Below, piece by piece: positions 1 through 15,077 of a stretch of DNA of 15,077 nt. This DNA is from Planctomycetaceae bacterium TMED10. Lineage in GTDB: Bacteria; Planctomycetota; Planctomycetia; Pirellulales; UBA7805. The stretch is taken from contig NHBP01000067.1 in assembly GCA_002168195.1 (NCBI GenBank), positions 5,772 to 20,848 on the forward strand, given 5' to 3'. Numbering within the stretch: the first letter of the stretch is position 1; every line of letters starts with the position of its first letter. The notes beneath the pieces are model-generated. The model was not told the origin of the DNA and made no database searches. It saw nothing but the letters and a program-made list of their open reading frames with translations. A program made the translations under genes and the position numbers.

Positions 1-1176
<1,176 letters not shown>

Positions 1177-2984: not shown

Positions 2985-3056
2985 GGCGCCGTAGGCAAGT
3001 GGCTAAGCCAGCGGATTGCAAATCCGCCACCATCGGTTCGAATCCGATCGGCGCCT
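2985..3056 (+). tRNA. tRNA-Cys (anticodon GCA)
   Basis: A complete cloverleaf can be drawn. The acceptor GGCGCCG (2985-2991) pairs perfectly with CGGCGCC (3049-3055), with discriminator T3056. The D stem is GGC/GCC. The anticodon stem GCGGA/TCCGC (3011-3015/3023-3027) encloses loop TTGCAAA with anticodon GCA at 3018-3020. The T stem ATCGG/CCGAT encloses loop TTCGAAT. The CCA end is not encoded (CTCTTT follows), so it must be added after transcription. Confidence 0.97.
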
Positions 3057-8004: not shown

Positions 8005-9891
8005 ATGAGAAGCTTTCTGTCAGGCATGGTGCTTTGGGTGCCGGCGTTTTGCTTGCTGATAATCGCCACCGGTTGCCGTAAAGAGGCTGCGCCGGACAAG
8101 CATTTGATTCACCAGAAGGCAGAAGCAATGGGCGCACAAACAGTGGGTGACTTTGTCTTTACCAACGGAGCGATCTACACGGTTAACGAAAAGTATCCCT
8201 GGGCGCAGGCCGTTGCCGTAAAGGGCAACACGATTGTCTATGTAGGTGATAACGAGGGCGCCCGGGCATTTGTCGGGCTGGACACTCAGTCGATCGATCT
8301 TCAGGGAAGGTTGGTATTGCCCGGTTTTGTCGAATCACACATTCATATTCTGCTCGGTGCAGCGACCACCTCAGGGCTGACTTTGACGATGGCTGACTCG
8401 CTGGAAACGGTGTTGCGGAAACTCAAGGTCTATGCCGATACCCATCCGGACAGAAAGACCATTTTTGGCGCTTCCTACAGTGCTTTTCTGTTTGATGGCA
8501 CCGAGCCGGATAAAGCAATTCTCGATCAGGTGGTTTCCGATCGTCCGGTGCTGTTGATGGACCACACTCTTCATTCTGTGTGGGTCAATTCAAAAGCCTT
8601 GGAGGTGGCGGGTATTACCAGCGAAACCAAGGATCCTGCAGGTGGCCAGTACATCCGTGATGCGAATGGTGACCCGACCGGATGGATCAAAGGCAGCCCG
8701 GCAAGTTTACCGGTGCTTCGAGCCATTGAGGCGATTCCACCCTCTGCGATGCTCGCATCGATTCCGGAAGTGCTGGAAGGCCTCACGGAATTCGGTTTCA
8801 CAGCAGCGATTGATATGGGTAATCCGATCGCCACCGAAACGGGACTACAGACGATCGTCGATCTGGACCGTCAAGGCAAGCTTCCATTGCGGATGAGCAT
8901 GACGCATTTTGTAAACACACCACACGTGGCCCAAACGGCTTTAAAAGTGCAACGCCAATACGCCGAGCAGTATCAGAGTGACCATGTGTGGTTCGATACA
9001 CTCAAGATTGTCGATGACAGCGTGATGGAAAATCAAAAAGCTGCCATGCTTGAGCCTTACCTGACGAGCGGTGAACGAGGCTTGCTTTACTTTGACCAGC
9101 AGGCGATGCAGCAACTGGTTTTGGGGGCGGCTCAAATGGGGCACGGCACTGCGACGCATTGCATCGGTGACTGGGCCGTTCGCGAAACGCTTGATGCGGC
9201 CGAAGCACTAAGGCAGTCGGGAGATCAAACCACGCGGTTCATTGCCACGCATGTGCAAATGGTGCATCCCGACGACCGGAAGCGTTTTGGCGAATTGAAC
9301 GTGATCGTGCAGACAACCGCGAACTGGGCCAACTATCAGCCTTCCTACATCAAGCACATTGGCCAAATGCGTAATGATACGTATCAATTTCCGTTTCGCA
9401 GTTGGATCGATGGCGGAGCGATTGTGGCTCTCGGTGCCGATTGGCCGGCCACCCCCGGTGGCTTCAAGCACGGCGTCAACCCGTTCATCAATATTTATGT
9501 CGCGATGCATCGCCGCGTGCCCAAAAATTTAATTGATGAGTTCGCTTCGGCCGATCAGGTGTTGCCCCCGGCAGATCAGGTGCTCACGCTTGCAGAAGCG
9601 ATTGAAGGCTACACGATCAACGGTGCGAAACTGCTCGGGATTGAAGATCAGATAGGTTCGATTGAAGTGGGCAAGAAGGCGGACATGATTCTTCTGAGCC
9701 AAAACCTGTTTGAGATCAATGCAGAGGAAATCCCGAAGACAACAATTCTCGCCACGATGTTTGATGGCGAGATCATTCACGACTTGCTGTACGGCATCGG
9801 CGATAGCGATCAGGTTGACCTGGATGAAGTTGGCCGGGGCGCAACGGGGCCCTGCCTGCATGGAAGGAAGTACGAACACCAGCACCATTAG
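8005..9891 (+). CDS. Lipoprotein amidohydrolase, YtcJ/amidohydrolase-3 type
   Basis: A 628-residue metal-dependent hydrolase. The N terminus (MRSFLSGMVLWVPAFCLLI, then IATGC) is a lipoprotein signal with the lipidated Cys at residue 24, so it is probably anchored outside the cytoplasm. Metal-ligand motifs follow amidohydrolase order. GFVESHIHILLG gives His112 and His114. LKIVDDSVMEN gives Lys334, the expected carboxylated lysine. Then come THCIGDWAVRETLDAAEA, the His pair in HVQMVHPDD, and LGADWPATPGG with Asp479. A C-terminal composite-domain strand (GSIEVGKKADMILLSQNLFE) is also present. Relatives include N-substituted formamide deformylase and many uncharacterised enzymes, so the substrate is unknown. 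The tail HGRKYEHQHH is His-rich. AGGGG lies 6 nt before the ATG. It could be part of the preceding operon or have its own promoter. Confidence 0.88.
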   Translation: MRSFLSGMVLWVPAFCLLIIATGCRKEAAPDKHLIHQKAEAMGAQTVGDFVFTNGAIYTVNEKYPWAQAVAVKGNTIVYVGDNEGARAFVGLDTQSIDLQGRLVLPGFVESHIHILLGAATTSGLTLTMADSLETVLRKLKVYADTHPDRKTIFGASYSAFLFDGTEPDKAILDQVVSDRPVLLMDHTLHSVWVNSKALEVAGITSETKDPAGGQYIRDANGDPTGWIKGSPASLPVLRAIEAIPPSAMLASIPEVLEGLTEFGFTAAIDMGNPIATETGLQTIVDLDRQGKLPLRMSMTHFVNTPHVAQTALKVQRQYAEQYQSDHVWFDTLKIVDDSVMENQKAAMLEPYLTSGERGLLYFDQQAMQQLVLGAAQMGHGTATHCIGDWAVRETLDAAEALRQSGDQTTRFIATHVQMVHPDDRKRFGELNVIVQTTANWANYQPSYIKHIGQMRNDTYQFPFRSWIDGGAIVALGADWPATPGGFKHGVNPFINIYVAMHRRVPKNLIDEFASADQVLPPADQVLTLAEAIEGYTINGAKLLGIEDQIGSIEVGKKADMILLSQNLFEINAEEIPKTTILATMFDGEIIHDLLYGIGDSDQVDLDEVGRGATGPCLHGRKYEHQHH

Positions 9892-10080: not shown

Positions 10081-10124
10081 CCGATGTGCCTTTGACTCTT
10101 TCTCATTTTCCTGACAGCTGTTTC

Positions 10125-10853
10125 ATGCGAATCCCGCGTTCTTGTTCCTGGACTAGTTTGTGCATCGGCGGATTTTTATGCGCGGTGTTCATAGTGCCAC
10201 CGGTGGTCTGCGGGCAGGACATCCAGGACCGCGGTTTGTGGCTTGCCTTATTTTCCCAGGGCGAGTTGGATATTCCGGCCACCGACACGGAGAATCTGTT
10301 GTGGTGGTACGATAGCCACGCCCGATTTTTTGGCGGTCCCTTCCCCGAGTTTCAAGGCATTGTCCGCCCCGGGATGGGATACAAACTCAGCGACAACCAT
10401 TCGATGTGGCTCGGTTACGCGTGGGTTCGGGATGTGCTTCCCGAGTTGGATGTCGAGGAAAATCGAATCTGGCAGCAGTGGGGATGGACCGAAGAGTTCG
10501 GCGATATTTCCACGCTCTGGCGGAGCCGGTTGGAGCAGCGATTCGTTTCTGTCGGTCCGCAGGTCGGTTGGCGGTTCCGACAACTGCTGCGAGCCTCCAA
10601 GCCGCTGGAGAATCATCCGCGGTTAACGTGGGTTGCCTGGGATGAGATCTTTTTTCACCTGCGCAACACGGACTGGGGCGCGGTGGCCGGATACAATCAG
10701 AATCGTGTGTTTGTGGGGATGGGCGTCACGCCGCGTTCCGGGAGTCCCTGGCGGACCGAAGTGGGCTATCTCTATCAGCAGATCGACATTCCCTTTGACG
10801 GCGCGAACCTGAGCAATCACATTCTCTCGGTCAACATCTATTACAATCCGTAG
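10125..10853 (+). CDS. DUF2490-like outer-membrane beta-barrel protein
   Basis: 242 residues from ATG 10125. The frame is open back to GTG 10086, but the Met at 10125 gives a clean signal peptide ending near VVCGQD. The mature part has the DUF2490 pattern: a Trp-rich opening (GLWLALFSQGEL), GYKLSDNHSMWLGYAW, ENRIWQQWGW, SRLEQRFV, WRFRQLLRA, then alternating aromatic strands, and a final aromatic strand ending NIYYNP. DUF2490 proteins are predicted outer-membrane barrels of unknown function. There is no recognisable partner next to it, and no good Shine-Dalgarno is visible. Its TAG stop directly abuts the stop of the convergent acyltransferase gene. Confidence 0.75.
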   Translation: MRIPRSCSWTSLCIGGFLCAVFIVPPVVCGQDIQDRGLWLALFSQGELDIPATDTENLLWWYDSHARFFGGPFPEFQGIVRPGMGYKLSDNHSMWLGYAWVRDVLPELDVEENRIWQQWGWTEEFGDISTLWRSRLEQRFVSVGPQVGWRFRQLLRASKPLENHPRLTWVAWDEIFFHLRNTDWGAVAGYNQNRVFVGMGVTPRSGSPWRTEVGYLYQQIDIPFDGANLSNHILSVNIYYNP

Positions 10854-11558
10854 TCAGTTTAATTGCCTGACTATTTTTGCAGGGTTGCCTCCGACGACGC
10901 AATCTGGAGGGACGTCTCGCGTAACAACAGATTCAGCTGCAACGATGGAACGACTGCCAATGGTTGTGCCTTTGAGGATTACTGCGTGGGAACCAACCCA
11001 AACATCGTCCTCAATCATCACTGGCTTTATCTCTTGGTCAGAAATAGCTTTGTGATCACGACGAGCTAAATAATCGATAGAATGTCCATCGTAATCGCGA
11101 ATACTCACTCCACCAGCGATCAGGCAATGGTTTCCAATCCGCACCGACTTCGCTGTATAAATTGAGCAGCCATGCCCAATGAATGTTGAGTTGCCAATTG
11201 ATAATTGAGGACTGTCCCAAACACTATTGCAAAACTCGAATTTTGATTTTCCCGAAAAATAAACGTCCGAACCGATGGAGATTTCTCCCACTCCTTGAAG
11301 AGAAATGAGTTTTTCCATTGTAAATCGCGAGCCAACATCTTTGCATTGACTGCGAAATAGAGGCTCAAACCAAAAGACCCGCAGCAGGCCAAGAATCAAG
11401 AACTTGATAGCCACTTGTGTCATGTAGAGGAGTGCAAAAAAGGGTTTGGTAAGCGGGCCAACAGGAACGCTTATATGCAGCAGTGCCAGCGCTAACCTTT
11501 TTGCATTCTTCCAGAACCAGCCTTCTCCACGGCGAAGTTTAACGCTTAGTTTTGTCAT
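10854..11558 (-). CDS. Left-handed beta-helix (hexapeptide) acyltransferase, WcaF-like
   Basis: 234-residue O-acyltransferase of the colanic-acid/serotonin acetyltransferase type, which transfers an acetyl or similar group from CoA to a sugar. A hydrophobic stretch (about residues 38-68) precedes the beta-helix and may associate with the membrane. Hexapeptide repeats run from about residue 90, for example LSIGNSTFIGHGCSIYTA and VRIGNHCLIAGGVSI. The catalytic loop DYDGHSID gives His159. The C-terminal coil is VWVGSHAVILKGTTIG, and the classic ending GNPAKIV follows. It starts at ATG 11558, with GAGG 9 nt upstream. It probably acetylates surface or exopolysaccharide. The DNA is more AT-rich than the genes to its left, and it is the first gene of the cassette-like region, so I suspect horizontal acquisition. 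Confidence 0.88.
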   Translation of the reverse strand: MTKLSVKLRRGEGWFWKNAKRLALALLHISVPVGPLTKPFFALLYMTQVAIKFLILGLLRVFWFEPLFRSQCKDVGSRFTMEKLISLQGVGEISIGSDVYFSGKSKFEFCNSVWDSPQLSIGNSTFIGHGCSIYTAKSVRIGNHCLIAGGVSIRDYDGHSIDYLARRDHKAISDQEIKPVMIEDDVWVGSHAVILKGTTIGSRSIVAAESVVTRDVPPDCVVGGNPAKIVRQLN

Positions 11559-11591
11559 ATACTATTTCCTCTTCAGGATCTTGTCCTGTCC

Positions 11592-11720
11592 TCAAGCGAA
11601 CCCTGGTGGAGTTCCGTCCTTAACCAAAGGCCGCATGTGGTGGCCGATGATTCCGTAACAAAAACCGCAAACTATCCTACCAGCAAAGCCGATGTAGCTG
11701 ACAACCTCCACAGCGGTCAT
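11592..11720 (-). CDS. Possible 42-aa hydrophobic small protein
   Basis: Short frame from ATG 11720 to TGA 11594-11592, starting MTAVEVVSYIGFAGRIVCGF and ending GTPPGFA. The first 27 residues are hydrophobic with Gly and Cys, as in a single membrane helix, and the tail is polar. AAGGA lies 9 nt before the ATG. It ends 33 bp before the acyltransferase start, same strand, so they could be cotranscribed from the TATAAT box near 11864. I recognise no family. Its support is only the ribosome binding site, composition and position, so it may be chance. Confidence 0.35.
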   Translation of the reverse strand: MTAVEVVSYIGFAGRIVCGFCYGIIGHHMRPLVKDGTPPGFA

Positions 11721-11794
11721 TGTCAGATTTCCTTGGGACCAATAACGTGTAAGAGATTAAATAATTTTGCCCATGGGACTCATGAAGGATGCTC

Positions 11795-11925
11795 GCCCAA
11801 CGGTTAGCTTGGCGATCTCCACTCGTCACCGAAGCGAGCAATCGTCAACCGCCACGGGATTATAGCAAACAGGAAAAGCTCTAAAACGCTGATGGGCGTA
11901 GCCCAGCTTGCAGGCTTTGTTAGGT
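11795..11925 (-). repeat. attC-like element A (cassette recombination site candidate)
   Basis: On the minus strand it begins with ACCTAAC (11925-11919, fits RYYYAAC), then AA and a CAAG segment. A perfect hairpin TGGGC-TAC-GCCCA follows (11905-11893). It ends with GTTGGGC (11801-11795, fits GTTRRRY). The end cores can pair (6 of 7 positions, counting one G-T). The inner segments AGCTGGGC and GCCAAGCT pair at 7 of 8 positions. The length of 131 bp is in the range of long attC sites such as Vibrio repeats. The two spacers between outer and inner boxes differ (about 10 and 4 nt), which is atypical. Confidence 0.5.
11859..11864 (-). promoter_or_regulatory. TATAAT -10 box facing the 42-aa and acyltransferase genes
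   Basis: The minus strand carries a perfect TATAAT at 11864-11859, about 33 nt past the element A hairpin. No convincing -35 is visible. A comparable TACAAT box follows element B and the putative element D at similar distances, which suggests cassettes carry their own promoter. Confidence 0.35.
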
Positions 11926-12085
11926 GACCTCTCACGAACGCGGAATCACGCCGACAAGTGCGAGGAGACCAACCACGGCAACGGCGGTCGGCAATACCGC
12001 GGATCGCTATCATTGCGAAGGCTGTGGAGGTATTTTTGAGGTAGACTGGGTCGAAGGCCAAGTCTGCTACGACATTGCCGAGTGA
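11924..12085 (+). CDS. Possible 53-aa zinc-ribbon-like protein or gene remnant
   Basis: Frame from GTG 11924 to TGA 12083-12085, with a TAG immediately before the GTG. The second half reads like a real protein: RYHCEGCGGIFEVDWVEG followed by QVCYDIAE, with a CxxCG knuckle and a later Cys. The first half is Thr/Ala/Arg-rich and less convincing. No Shine-Dalgarno supports the GTG. The frame begins inside attC-like element A. Another frame over 11942-12000 contains HADKCEETNHGNGG, so a frameshifted, formerly longer zinc-ribbon gene is possible. It lies upstream of the CNNM gene on the same strand. Treat as tentative. Confidence 0.3.
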   Translation: MTSHERGITPTSARRPTTATAVGNTADRYHCEGCGGIFEVDWVEGQVCYDIAE

Positions 12086-12109
12086 TGGTTTTCTTTCCTA
12101 CAATGAGTG
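12075..12109 (+). promoter_or_regulatory. Candidate promoter of the CNNM gene; copy of the cassette TACAATGAGTG motif
   Basis: TTGCCG (12075-12080), an 18-bp spacer, then TACAAT (12099-12104) make a plausible sigma-70 promoter, with about 50 nt to the CNNM start. TTTCCTACAATGAGTG (12094-12109) is nearly identical, apart from one inserted base, to the minus-strand motif at 15035-15019 upstream of the 91-aa gene. Confidence 0.45.
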
Positions 12110-12157
12110 GCGGCTAGCTTCCTCTGTATTTCTTGATTCTCTCGAGTTTGAGTAATA

Positions 12158-13306
12158 ATGCTGAATCGCACCTTTTTTTTACTGACGTTGGCGATTTTGA
12201 TAATGGCTGCGCTTGGTGCTGGATCGCCAATAGCAGCAAGCGAGAAATCGTCTTCCTACACGGGTCTCGCCGATCTGATTCCGCTAGCCCTGTTTTTGCT
12301 ACTGGCACTCGGAGTCTCTTTCCTGTGCTCCATCCTCGAAGCGGTTTTGCTCTCGGTCGGGCCGGGCCAGGTGCAGATGATGGTGGAGGACGGAAAAAAA
12401 TCGGGACAGATACTAAAAAACCTTCGAAGTAATTTAGATCGATCGCTTTCAGCGATCCTCACTCTTAATACCGTGGCACACACGGCCGGAGCAGCCGGTG
12501 TGGGGGCGGAAGTGGCACGCGTGTTTGGAAATACTTATCTAGGGATAGCCTCCGTCATTCTTACATTGCTGGTGCTTGTACTCTCGGAGATTATTCCAAA
12601 AACACTCGGTGCAAGGCATGCCAGTTCGCTTGCCAGCAAGAGCGCCATCTTGATTCACTGGCTCTCCCTCTTGCTCTTACCAGTAGTCATCCTTCTTCAG
12701 GGCATCTCAACTTTACTGTTTGGAAAAGCGAATGAGAGCACCTACTCTCGCGTCGAACTGATTGCAATGGCCGGGCTGGCTGGCCAGGAAGGCGACATCG
12801 GAAAAGCCGAAGCGGGCATGGTGCAAAATATGCTGCGCCTTAAAGTGCTGACAGTCCGCGACATCATGACGCCGATGACAGTTGCTTTCTGTCTAGACGA
12901 AAGCCTCACCGTCCGACAGGCAATTAAAGAACATATGCCGATAAAATTTTCTCGCGTTCCGCTGCGCAACCAAGAAGGGCATTTAAAACGATATTTTAAA
13001 TATACCGATCTTTTGAGATCACACTATGAATCGGCAGATGAAAAGACACTTTCAGAAATCGCATTTCCACTAAAAAACATTGCGGACTCCGCAAGCGTCT
13101 TTGATTCACTGCAAATGCTCACAGACGGTCGCGATGAAATGGTGCTCGTGTTAAATGAATTCGGACAAGAGATCGGCCTCGTTACCCGCGAGGATATTTT
13201 GGAAGCTATCGCCGGAAAAGCAATTGCAGATGAAGACGATGAACACGCCAGCCCACGTGATTACGCATTAGAGCAAAGCAAAACGCGGGGAAGCACCGAA
13301 CCCTAG
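12158..13306 (+). CDS. CNNM/CBS domain membrane protein (hemolysin-C/CorC-related, putative divalent-cation transport)
   Basis: 382 residues. A hydrophobic N terminus (residues 1-27) may be a signal peptide. The CNNM (DUF21) membrane domain spans about 38-200, with hydrophobic segments around 40-62, 95-118, 127-150 and 164-190. It contains the family stretches LTLNTVAHTAGAAG and LSEIIPKTLGARHAS. A linker with QNMLRLKVLTVRDIMTPMT leads into a CBS pair (about 225-345) ending GLVTREDILEAIAG. The C-terminal CorC/HlyC domain of longer relatives is absent. The family is linked to Mg2+/Co2+ or Na+/Mg2+ exchange. The gene runs opposite to its neighbours in the cassette-like region, and its promoter carries the shared TACAATGAGTG motif. 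Shine-Dalgarno is weak, so the start at ATG 12158 is moderately certain. Confidence 0.88.
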   Translation: MLNRTFFLLTLAILIMAALGAGSPIAASEKSSSYTGLADLIPLALFLLLALGVSFLCSILEAVLLSVGPGQVQMMVEDGKKSGQILKNLRSNLDRSLSAILTLNTVAHTAGAAGVGAEVARVFGNTYLGIASVILTLLVLVLSEIIPKTLGARHASSLASKSAILIHWLSLLLLPVVILLQGISTLLFGKANESTYSRVELIAMAGLAGQEGDIGKAEAGMVQNMLRLKVLTVRDIMTPMTVAFCLDESLTVRQAIKEHMPIKFSRVPLRNQEGHLKRYFKYTDLLRSHYESADEKTLSEIAFPLKNIADSASVFDSLQMLTDGRDEMVLVLNEFGQEIGLVTREDILEAIAGKAIADEDDEHASPRDYALEQSKTRGSTEP

Positions 13307-13334
13307 GCATAATTAAGCAAAAGATTGCACCTGA

Positions 13335-13374
13335 CCACATTAGTGGAACTGATACGCGTCGCAGTGGTTGCGAC
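13335..13374. other. Two short hairpins after the CNNM gene
   Basis: CCAC-ATTA-GTGG (13335-13346) and GTCGCA-gtggt-TGCGAC (13358-13374) are perfect inverted repeats within 70 nt of the CNNM stop. No T-run follows either. They may be a 3'-end or bidirectional structure, or part of element C. Confidence 0.35.
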
Positions 13375-13421
13375 ACCCAATGGTGGGCGAAGCCGGGCCT
13401 TGCGGGCACGACTTGTTGGGC
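13375..13421 (-). repeat. attC-like element C
   Basis: On the minus strand: GCCCAAC (13421-13415, fits RYYYAAC), then AA, CAAG (13402-13399), a short hairpin GGC-TTC-GCC (13394-13386) and ATTGGGT (13381-13375). The last is one base short of GTTRRRY and pairs with the first core, allowing a G-T pair. It has the same order of parts as elements A and B. It lies between the sulfotransferase and CNNM stops, 93 nt past the sulfotransferase stop. At 47 bp it is short, and the two arms are unequal in length. Confidence 0.4.
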
Positions 13422-13514
13422 GAAGCCTACGACGGCGTGTGGCCAACAGCAAGATTATTCACACTATGCTGCACTCTATTGAACTAAGAGAACGCAGTTT
13501 GCCGCAGGAGATTT

Positions 13515-14393
13515 CTAAAAAGGTATTTCGTAACCAAGCATCTCCATGCTTTCTGAGCAATGGTTCTTGAAGGTTTCTTTTTGTTGATTGCTCCACTTCT
13601 GATGAGCGGGTTCCCTGTTTTGAAAGGTAGTTTTAGCATCGACAGCCAATTCCACCGTTTTATCGAGGGGGCGAACTAGTGTTGACGCTGCATATTCAGC
13701 TGCCCCTTCATTGGGTTCGAGTTTCAAAAAGCTGATAATCTTATTCAGGACTGCCGCACTGTTTTCGACCATGTCCTGATGTTTGACCACGATGGCTTTA
13801 TCATCTTCGATTAAGTAGTGGTACTGCAATGCACCTTTATTCCAAAGTTCACAATGTTCCTTAAACGATAAAGATTTAAATGATCTGAAATTGCCCATGG
13901 AATAAACGACATCAATGCCGTTGCGATGTATATAAATATATTTTGAATTCGGGTAGAGCCAATTTAGTCCATCGGCAGAATTTTTGTCGGGGAAAACTTT
14001 CGCTAGCCAAACCTTAATTTTATTTTTGCAAGAAATAATAGAAGTGTTGGATTGATTTAAAATATGATAAGACAGGCCATACTGTTCTCCGAAGGTAGCC
14101 TTGAGGCAAAGCTCCATGATATGTTTCTTAAAAGCTTCTTCTTCTAACAGTATATTGCTCGGATGAGCCTCTCTGCTGATGTAATTATAAAGAATATTTC
14201 CAAGCTGATGCACGAGAATAGATTCGATGCGCGAGGCTAATACCGAGGGATGTTGTTCCAGCGCTCTGCATAGCACGGTTGTTCCCGATCGGCCCATCCC
14301 AACGACAAATACTGGATTATTCCAAAAGGGATAATTTTTTATGCCAAACAGTTTCTGCATAAAATATCTAGTATTTGCTTTTAGGATATCCAT
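13515..14393 (-). CDS. PAPS-dependent sulfotransferase
   Basis: 292 residues. The 5'-phosphosulfate-binding loop reads VFVVGMGRSGTTVLCRALEQ (about residues 28-47). The 3'-phosphate-binding motif YIYIHRNGIDVVYSM has Arg157, Asp161 and Ser165 in the expected spacing. The C terminus ends MEMLGYEIPF, as in many bacterial sulfotransferases. It should transfer sulfate from PAPS to a carbohydrate or other acceptor; planctomycetes carry many such genes, and the acceptor here is unknown. The DNA is clearly AT-richer than the left half (the 60 bases at 13861-13920 are one-third GC), which suggests acquisition. No strong Shine-Dalgarno precedes ATG 14393. The possible promoter TACAAT at 14570-14565 leaves a leader of about 165 nt. 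Confidence 0.88.
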   Translation of the reverse strand: MDILKANTRYFMQKLFGIKNYPFWNNPVFVVGMGRSGTTVLCRALEQHPSVLASRIESILVHQLGNILYNYISREAHPSNILLEEEAFKKHIMELCLKATFGEQYGLSYHILNQSNTSIISCKNKIKVWLAKVFPDKNSADGLNWLYPNSKYIYIHRNGIDVVYSMGNFRSFKSLSFKEHCELWNKGALQYHYLIEDDKAIVVKHQDMVENSAAVLNKIISFLKLEPNEGAAEYAASTLVRPLDKTVELAVDAKTTFQNREPAHQKWSNQQKETFKNHCSESMEMLGYEIPF

Positions 14394-14544
14394 TTATATA
14401 CCACTGCCCTTGCGCGTCTTGGCACTTCTGCTCTTCTCGTGAAATATCTTCTGGGTCATTTTTCAGTTTTTACGCTGATCAGGTTAGTTGTCATTATCCG
14501 CGCAGAGCAGCAGATAGAAAGACTCAAGGCAATCTGAGGTGGGG

Positions 14545-14571
14545 AAAAGTTAAGTAACACACTTATTGTAT
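14545..14571 (-). repeat. 27-nt cassette-boundary repeat, copy 1, with TACAAT box
   Basis: These 27 bases match 15004-15030 at 24 positions. On the minus strand the element reads ATACAATAAGTGTGT, then an RYYYAAC core ACTTAAC (14555-14549) and TTTT. TACAAT at 14570-14565 is preceded by TGA, as in an extended -10, and could drive the sulfotransferase gene. It lies about 39 nt past the hairpin of element B. Confidence 0.55.
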
Positions 14572-14593
14572 CAGACTATTTAATTGGTTATTT

Positions 14594-14642
14594 GCTAGGC
14601 GGCGATGGCCGTAGGCCACCTTGCGACCAGAGTTTGTTAGAC
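14594..14642 (-). repeat. attC-like element B, overlapping the stop of the 91-aa gene
   Basis: On the minus strand GTCTAAC (14642-14636) contains the TAA stop of the 91-aa gene, a typical arrangement for cassette genes and attC sites. It continues with AAACTCTGGTCG, then CAAGG, and a perfect hairpin TGGCC-TAC-GGCCA (14618-14606). A good GTTRRRY partner is not found: the far end reads GCCTAGC (14600-14594), or the element may extend to the boundary repeat at 14549. Confidence 0.45.
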
Positions 14643-14912
14643 CGCATTCCGTTGCGCACGAAATAGTGCGATGCCAATGCCTACCGCCCACAATGCGTTC
14701 GTGATCACCATCAATAGGATTACCAACATCATTTGTGCTCCAGCATGATTGGCGATGGACTCGCCTTGCTGCTCGCTGAGCACGTTCTTGAAGGCCTCAA
14801 AGTTCATGTCATAGAGCCCGACTCCGGAAACTGCATGATAGAAGAAAGCGAAGCAAATCGCCGTTAGCGCAAAAAGGCACATCAATACATAGACAATCCA
14901 CGCGGTACGCAT
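14637..14912 (-). CDS. Small membrane protein with two transmembrane helices, unknown function
   Basis: 91 residues with two predicted membrane helices, roughly 4-26 (WIVYVLMCLFALTAICFAFF) and 60-84 (MMLVILLMVITNALWAVGIG). They are joined by a polar loop of about 30 residues (NFEAFKNVLSEQQGESIANH). Basic residues follow the second helix (FRAQRNAV), so both ends are probably cytoplasmic. GGAGG lies 9 nt before ATG 14912, a strong start. The stop lies inside attC-like element B, and the gene is bracketed by the 27-nt boundary repeat, so it looks like a single-gene cassette of about 460 bp. I recognise no family; small two-helix proteins of this kind are common integron-cassette products. Confidence 0.7.
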   Translation of the reverse strand: MRTAWIVYVLMCLFALTAICFAFFYHAVSGVGLYDMNFEAFKNVLSEQQGESIANHAGAQMMLVILLMVITNALWAVGIGIALFRAQRNAV

Positions 14913-14972
14913 CGTGCGCGTCCTCCGTTCAAGAAACCTCGGTGTCGGATTTGCTTATGTGGTTTAATGGTG

Positions 14973-14996
14973 GGTGTGGCCGTCACCGCCCACACC
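14973..14996 (-). promoter_or_regulatory. Leader hairpin upstream of the 91-aa gene
   Basis: GGTGTGG (14973-14979) pairs with CCACACC (14990-14996), with two more inner C-G pairs around a TCAC loop. It lies between the TACAAT box (15029-15024) and ATG 14912, so it would fold in the 5' leader of that transcript. It could insulate the cassette from upstream transcription or affect translation. No T-run follows on the minus strand. Confidence 0.35.
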
Positions 14997-15003
14997 GGGG
15001 ATT

Positions 15004-15030
15004 AAAAGTTAAATCACACACTCATTGTAT
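15004..15030 (-). repeat. 27-nt cassette-boundary repeat, copy 2, with TACAAT box
   Basis: Matches 14545-14571 at 24 of 27 positions, 459 bp away in the same orientation. On the minus strand it reads ATACAATGAGTGTGT, then ATTTAAC (RYYYAAC) at 15014-15008 and TTTT. TACAAT (15029-15024) is a candidate -10 for the 91-aa gene. Confidence 0.55.
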
Positions 15031-15057
15031 GGAAACGCAAGAATTGTGCAAAAACAT

Positions 15058-15077
15058 CGAAGGTGACCCGGCGAAGC
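15058..15077 (-). repeat. Partial attC-like element D at the right edge
   Basis: The last bases read, on the minus strand, GCTTCGCCGGGTCACC. This matches the hairpin turn of element C (GGC-TTC-GCC) and lies about 42 nt before the TACAAT boundary repeat, the same distance as in element B. The rest is outside the window. Confidence 0.3.

Follow-up and report, generated by a model that had tools for sequence, protein, structure and literature searches.

A planctomycete cassette array read as part of an integron-type platform with a recombinase lacking the IntI insert

Contig NHBP01000067.1 of Planctomycetaceae bacterium TMED10 (assembly GCA_002168195.1) ends in a row of single genes separated by repeated, hairpin-bearing elements. 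The stretch analyzed here, the window, is 15,077 nucleotides long and corresponds to positions 5772-20848 of this contig, its right edge being the contig end (20848). Genomes carry G-numbers as labels, G000 being the 3.76-Mb genome of the window and G003 a sister species, and coordinates follow window numbering unless marked C3:, for the contig (G000:C3). We read the row, with good confidence, as the distal part of a cassette array belonging to an integron-type platform with a non-IntI tyrosine recombinase, REC. The wider proposal, which we favor with more reserve, is that Planctomycetota contain a second, independent-looking integron class: a tyrosine recombinase without the IntI-specific additional domain (I2), from a sister or near-sister line of IntI, with attI and attC types of its own and promoters inside its sites, coexisting with IntI integrons on the same chromosome yet segregated from them. 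Comparison of sequences documents the arrays, the complementary cassette ends, the order REC-attI-array, the sharing of single cassettes, the segregation from the IntI regions surveyed and the absence of the IntI insert; we infer that REC is the enzyme of these sites, that its substrate is folded single-stranded DNA and that the promoters work.

The preliminary description of this DNA, made from the letters of the window, had noted an array with no visible integrase. A candidate does lie on the same contig, 4 kb to the left of the window on the minus strand (C3:406-1716), and it is not an IntI. The core catalytic motifs of REC are present (by eye), the C-terminus bears an additional domain about 100 residues long, and the IntI insert (I2, roughly 40 residues) is absent. 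The distance from the GKG motif to the HxxR motif is 66-73 in 16 of 17 REC proteins and 86 in the other, versus 107-109 in all ten IntI proteins in which it was measurable, the motif failing in 8 of 18. Against the IntI model TIGR02249 REC scored 185 bits (cut-off 265), against the XerA model 193.9 (cut-off 220) and against XerC 162.3; its best structure-bank matches were XerC-like and XerA enzymes, while the IntI4 structure 2a3v aligned to it in two pieces, with a gap at the site of the missing insert. The C-terminal domain was found in 8 of 296 genomes of the order, 3 of 392 of the phylum (G000 included) and 31 of 241 of a family designated f15. An orthologue occurs in the sister species G005, a Pirellulales metagenome-assembled genome (MAG; ETNP7_MAG_59), whose contig was the only one confirmed by a related-locus search of named genomes. 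A search for relatives in viral_contigs gave 33 pattern matches, none confirmed. Plasmid matches, among the 5000 listed, were all below 60% identity, two of them covering at least 80% of the query; two listed plasmid matches are annotated beside IS91 transposases.

In a phylogenetic tree, REC (17 rows) and IntI (18 rows) each occupied one side of a branch with support 100/100. REC, IntI and four other recombinases (from G029, G042, G008 and G007) formed one group apart from Xer, and the REC clade was separate from the two Xer-type proteins of its own genome. In a smaller tree, REC was placed as sister of IntI with support 92/78. Around the four other recombinases, the DNA fetched contained 0-4 repeat pairs and showed no repeat array. 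A recombinase group adjoining REC and IntI in the tree (stretches L159-L162) was likewise without arrays in the DNA fetched.

The organization of the platform is seen most fully in family f15, where arrays lie downstream of REC and on its strand, the largest with about 70 attC-like sites within 40 kb. Profile sites behind REC numbered 71 in G815 and 62 in G781 (both within 40 kb), 31 each in G230, G275 and G751, 24 in G778, 20 in G787, 18 in G796, 17 in G215, 15 in G795, 5 in G679 (REC frame broken) and 4 each in G257 and G785; sites of G230, G275, G215 and G257 had served to train the profile, so that matches there arise by construction. G785 holds three REC-type genes or fragments on one chromosome (C1:487847, 3238417 and 3957669, with few sites behind the one fetched), and G795 likewise has three. 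Twelve arrays yielded 283 complete sites (median 127 nt), collected by an AAC start, a TT end and motifs in which the L boxes were included, with 4-5 substitutions and no gaps allowed, and 275 cassettes (median 413 bp).

The two ends of each cassette are complementary. For cassettes shorter than 3 kb in the arrays of 12 genomes, eight positions outside the end-finding motifs were scored, and own ends paired at 1987 of 2200 positions (90%), versus 54.1% after permutation (maximum 57.4%; 0 of 5000 permutations). In all 12 arrays a GTT located 109-306 nt past the REC stop is followed by the complement of the R'' box of the first site. The best such GTT agreed at 9-12 of 12 positions, three of them fixed as GTT, and at 10 or more in 10 of the 12 arrays; other GTTs scored 4-9, and the best in G215 and G795 reached 9, a score that a second GTT equaled in G215. 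In 11 of 12 arrays the attI-like GTT stands shortly after a dyad like CGACACNCTGTCG or after a GGGG(N)TGTCG block (by eye). Downstream of REC, G000 and G005 share a block ending ..TCGGACACRCTGTCCGCTAGAGTACTGTTGG (GTT), with CGGACACRCTGTCCG shortly before the attI-like GTT in both and the attI-like site of G000 placed at C3:173; in G005 the block is followed by a cassette, TTGGCGTCAC .. GTGCCGCCAA, with 9/10 complementary ends (by eye), and then by an attC-like element at the contig end. Across the 12 f15 arrays, G000 and G005, an attI-like site with a predicted insertion point at G^TT lies beside the recombinase gene.

Circular sites were rebuilt for 267 of the 275 cassettes. On folding, both R and L stems formed in 258 of these 267 on the top strand and in 255 on the bottom strand, versus 200 when the mixed sites were folded in their array form. 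The 10-bp L stem is free of mismatch in 245 of 283 sites, as GGTTTTTACG/CGTAAAAACC or another perfect stem, a count favored by the collection motifs, and in nine sites it reads GGTTTTGCCG/CGGCAAAACC, with a change on each side. Extrahelical bases in the L stem, a feature of attC sites used by IntI, were mostly absent, most inner stems having no unpaired base. The preliminary description had likened the element ends to the attC boxes RYYYAAC and GTTRRRY; these are mostly not followed in the f15 arrays, fitting 65 and 68 of 283 elements, and the R' consensus is GTTRNNYG. Of the 283 sites, 220 contain a promoter of the form TTGnnn-16..18-TAnnnT directed at the next cassette, and the spacer measures 17 nt in 213 of these; among single-base shuffles the form occurred in 603 of 5660, and on the opposite strand in 0 of 283. 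Promoter activity is known from gene-less cassettes of Vibrio, one with start sites within attC, as described in PMC11014356; because of this precedent, promoters carried by cassettes are in themselves no novelty.

The longest open reading frame (ORF) lies on the array strand in 213 of 275 cassettes and on the opposite strand in 58. Ten cassette proteins scanned (G230, G275) comprised Fic, ParE, three domains of unknown function (DUFs), one sub-threshold peptidase and four with no match. Among the 270 cassettes shorter than 1.8 kb, calling alike those that are 75% or more identical over no less than 75% of their length, 22 alike pairs were found between genomes (18 of them between genera) and 23 within one genome; matching neighbor cassettes accompanied 0 of the 22 and 0 of the 23. 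Judged by these comparisons, the cassettes appear to move singly. The promoter, the hairpins and the strongly conserved sequence would also suit a miniature inverted-repeat transposable element, or a promoter/terminator repeat, spread by a transposase and having no role in cassette recombination. We regard this origin as very improbable: the complementarity joins the two ends of one gene unit and drops on permutation, nearly all arrays have a single orientation, gene parts, not bare elements alone, recur between genomes, and the elements are positioned behind REC.

Which enzyme goes with the sites was assessed by co-occurrence. Across the 241 f15 genomes, 31 had the REC domain and 36 the site pattern (both 25, REC only 6, site only 11, neither 199; Fisher p 5e-20), and the REC domain was present in all 17 genomes with at least 10 pattern matches (read by hand). 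The arrays might instead belong to ordinary integrons on which a canonical IntI encoded at another locus acts in trans, with REC a mere neighbor, and IntI is indeed common: 124 of the 241 f15 genomes carry it at E<=1e-60, 122 over the cut-off, as do all 14 tested REC genomes of f15 and f21 (over the cut-off). Nevertheless, the REC domain predicts sites far better (25/31 genomes with it versus 11/210 without) than IntI does (by our reading, 27/124 versus 9/117), and the attI-like sites directly follow REC. A survey of 16 IntI regions, which came from 13 genomes and measured 20 kb apart from one of 11 kb, found no REC-type site, and several of these regions have other short repeats of their own; additional IntI copies of G230, G815 and G796 stood outside this survey. 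In the IntI-bearing stretches L130-L136, repeat pairs numbered 1-9 and nothing like these arrays was seen. Conversely, three genomes that are 97-99% complete, G777, G779 and G793, combine REC-domain hits and 10-12 sites with the absence, by our reading, of any IntI at E<=1e-60. The preliminary description had advised looking for intI; in the genus of the window, none of the six genomes (62-99% complete) has a TIGR02249 match over the cut-off; the weaker matches listed, REC among them, skip model positions 182-234. We therefore consider service by IntI in trans unlikely, and REC remains the preferred enzyme.

Arrays of the same kind, with differing genes between their sites, extend through the genus. 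When the copy on contig C37 was used as a query, 60 matches turned up in a set of 11 genomes (G000 13, G001 7, G002 11, G003 18, G005 10, G006 1), with none in G004 (99% complete) or in four genomes of other families. A profile of the repeat (E<=1e-3) applied to the fetched contigs yielded 65 merged full or partial sites (G000 14, G001 8, G002 12, G003 20, G005 10, G006 1), 64 of them in five of the six genomes of this Pirellulales genus and the remaining one in G006, of the same family. The window stopping at the contig end, the further copies that the preliminary description had proposed to look for came from other contigs and genomes. Sixteen contigs hold more than one site, and in 15 these share one orientation; the exception, G003:C4, combines two stretches 71 kb apart. 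The genus consensus, read by eye from the alignment, is YAACAAGTCGTGGCCGCAAGGYCCGGCTTCGCCGGGTCACCTTC..TTTTTGCAC..CATACAATGAGTGTG..CCCCGGTGTGGGCGGTGACGGCCACACCCACCATT, in which a left GTGGCCG can pair with a right CGGCCAC and a promoter-like TTGCAC-16-TACAAT stands in between; a minimal copy (G005:C439:7877) spans 47 nt from AAC to ATT. Own ends again agreed beyond permutation: 24 cassettes gave 92 pairs over eight positions versus 73.7 permuted (p 0.00055), with p 0.016 over six positions and 0.0043 over five. This test left out 3 left and 5 right ends that misfit the motif, and 7 of 31 cassettes on the list, of which 4 were longer than 3.5 kb and 3 had an intervening R-type end.

Some right halves in the genus (L118:6101, L051:3525, L051:2982) match f15 sites (GTAGTTCAGGCATCG..GGGCGGTGTCGTAAA), which suggests, on sequence likeness, that cassettes or sites have been exchanged between families. 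Single N letters occur in the window's assembly inside attC-like sites (L106, that is G000:C104, near 9383-9436) and inside the REC gene (G000:C3 near 1120-1180 and the REC C-terminus); they may reflect strain variation in the MAG.

The features of the window are listed in Table 1. The array runs on the minus strand over 11795-15077, in the order E4, E3, E2, E1, with a single gene between successive elements: first the 91-aa ORF, then the gene of the sulfotransferase family, then the CNNM/CBS gene; the CNNM gene is on the plus strand and the others on the minus strand. This agrees with the preliminary description, which had seen three and probably four minus-strand elements of one layout (here E1-E3 and the start of E4), single genes in mixed orientation between them, one element ending in GTTGGGC (E1) and one overlapping a gene stop, namely E3, whose start at 14642 overlaps the stop of the 91-aa ORF at 14637. 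The layout, formalized as GCAAG, 1-5 nt and a G+C hairpin with a TAC or TTC loop, had five matches in the genome, three of them E1, E2 and E3, against two for a reversed-pattern control; the genus-repeat profile matches E2, E3 and E4 (E4 at 136.9 bits), and E1 was matched by the pattern only. The RYYYAAC side fits in E1-E3. The left part of E4 is cut off by the contig end. Paired with the reverse complement of its 3' end (TTAGACCGCAT), the 5' end of the 91-aa ORF cassette is complementary at 9/11 positions (TT/AA counted), and the CNNM cassette ends, TTGGGTGTC and reverse-complemented TTAGGTGAC, agree at 7/9 (TT included). The sulfotransferase cassette gave no convincing match of its ends, because the right border of E3 is unclear.

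Relatives were compared, as the preliminary description had proposed. In G003 the DUF2490 anchor gene is present too, with genes after it that differ from those of the window, and there is a copy of E4 (G003:C64; 112 bp, 87.5% identical) with different genes on both flanks; synteny is thus not conserved here. Between the acyltransferase-like gene and the DUF2490 gene no element was seen in the sequence, the two abutting at 10853. An Rfam scan of the window returned only a tRNA. Apart from the array, three imperfect repeats (AAATGTTGCATAACTGTTGCGT) with 11-nt spacing stand at 2852-2895, upstream of a tRNA at 2985-3056. A first, strict pattern had matched E1 and one chance site on contig C110, around which no array was seen. 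A G012 repeat, GCGGAGCAAGCGGGCTACGGC, proved to be another intergenic hairpin, from a different family, and was dropped; G012 has about ten intergenic copies of this type (for example L056:2682 and L060:2679).

Table 1. Features of the array end of the window (window coordinates)
Feature	Position	Strand	Evidence and remarks
E4, right part of full-type attC-like element	14962..15077	-	hairpin end, promoter, L' box CGGCCAC, R' ATTAAAC
sigma70-like promoter in E4 (TTGCAC, 16 nt, TACAAT)	15024..15051	-	read from letters; module aligns across genus copies
91-aa ORF cassette	14637..14967 (ORF 14637-14912)	-	5' end TTAAACCACAT, 3' end ATGCGGTCTAA
E3, attC-like element, start GTCTAAC	14549..14642 (right border uncertain)	-	TACAAT module present; profile 22.2 bits
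Sulfotransferase-family gene, next cassette	13515..14393	-	PF13469 E 7.5e-19
E2, short attC-like element, GCCCAAC ... CACCATTGGGT	13375..13421	-	profile match 23.8 bits
CNNM/CBS-domain gene, antisense to array	12158..13306	+	PF01595 E 8.9e-35
E1, attC-like element, ACCTAAC ... GTTGGGC (11801-11795)	11795..11925	-	pattern match; no profile match
Hexapeptide-repeat acyltransferase-like gene, last cassette gene at distal end of array	10854..11558	-	PF14602 E 1.3e-12
DUF2490 gene, anchor at array edge (likewise array edge in G003)	10086..10853	+	PF10677 E 1.5e-40

Several observations weigh against assigning the window array to a REC platform. The array does not adjoin an attI site but stands 15 kb from REC on the far side of the contig, as would a cluster of attC sites lacking an integrase (CALIN), and E1, E2 and E3 look degenerate or shortened compared with E4, E1 probably being degenerate. 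REC was not found in three of the five element-bearing genus genomes (62-70% complete), and the REC domain is missing from 11 of the f15 genomes in which the site pattern occurs, with 1-9 matches apiece. Clear arrays are missing at some REC loci: G598, G712 and a REC fragment, G230b, have one site each, the 3-kb stretch available for G704 has none, and G790, G771, G203 and G163 (the last two with partial REC genes) have sites on the opposite strand only. G785 (2 cassettes) and G257 (4) were not individually significant in the end-pairing test. REC genomes often carry IntI as well (all of the 14 tested above; by our reading of the family-wide counts, 24 of the 31 REC-domain f15 genomes), and the sister relation of REC and IntI is not firm, being lost to view once the four other recombinases are included. 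The degenerate look of E1-E3, the distance from REC and the absence of a genus IntI over the cut-off would also fit a decayed CALIN, the remnant of a canonical integron lost from the genus. This seems quite unlikely to us, given E4 and tens of similar genus copies, one of them behind REC in G005, and given that the sites differ from the repeats beside IntI in relatives. Of the preliminary description's proposal of a chromosomal integron-like or CALIN-like cassette array, the array logic and the unusual sites stand, while the platform appears not to be of the IntI type; the evidence points to its alternative, a cassette system of another kind, with no IntI over the cut-off in the six genus genomes and a REC that lacks I2.

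The platform would consist of REC, an attI-like site just downstream of its gene, and cassettes made of a gene and an attC-like site. REC is envisaged to excise cassettes as circles through the attC-like sites, with their R''/R' ends, inner L boxes and folded hairpin. Insertion would take place at attI, ahead of the GTT, the folded attC-like sites recombining with attI as they do under IntI. Because cassette ends are complementary, a circle would carry a well-paired R-stem hairpin; circle excision and attC x attI recombination are proposed because the ends are complementary and single cassettes are shared. The nearly bulge-free L stem would fit an enzyme that reads no extrahelical base, and any avoidance of second-strand exchange by REC would have to work without I2. 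The outward promoter in most sites would express the next gene.

This anatomy is integron-like, and the platform departs from an IntI integron in several defining features, namely the missing I2, the place outside the IntI clade, the mostly non-canonical ends and the L stems mostly without extrahelical bases. Like sedentary chromosomal integrons (IntI, attI, attC), it combines a tyrosine recombinase gene and an adjacent attI-like site ending at GTT with tandem, same-orientation, mostly one-gene cassettes whose ends are complementary, whose sites form hairpins and have R and L boxes, and whose genes are of unknown or toxin type, reaching up to about 70 sites in 40 kb. It differs in having a recombinase that lacks the IntI insert and has an extra C-terminal domain, the R' consensus GTTRNNYG instead of GTTRRRY, an inner stem mostly free of unpaired bases, a promoter inside most sites, and a REC gene codirectional with its array; classical intI is divergent from its array. 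The window array, in which four sites were seen, shares with a CALIN the lack of an adjoining integrase, but the contig that carries it also encodes, at a distance of 15 kb, a recombinase that we assign to this type of site. REC matches XerC, XerD and XerA over the core, and these likewise have no insert; its clade, however, is apart from the genome's own Xer-type proteins and is placed at cassette arrays.

The I2 helix is regarded as the innovation that moved integron integrases onto single-strand attC sites. The domain is required of an integron integrase according to PMC9668308, and the use of attC is attributed to it in a 2020 eLife paper, which also gives the "lack of intermediates" among the reasons why the ancestor cannot simply be inferred and rebuilt (PMC7790495). 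No I2-less integron integrase was reported among the matches listed from the open-licence PubMed Central literature, which does not extend to preprints. The REC line may keep the pre-I2 state, or may show that I2 is dispensable for cassette recombination. Searches that require the IntI domain would miss this planctomycete gene-capture system, and an I2-less recombinase family near IntI, standing at cassette arrays, makes the question of the origin of I2 directly testable and could help to show how integrons arose.

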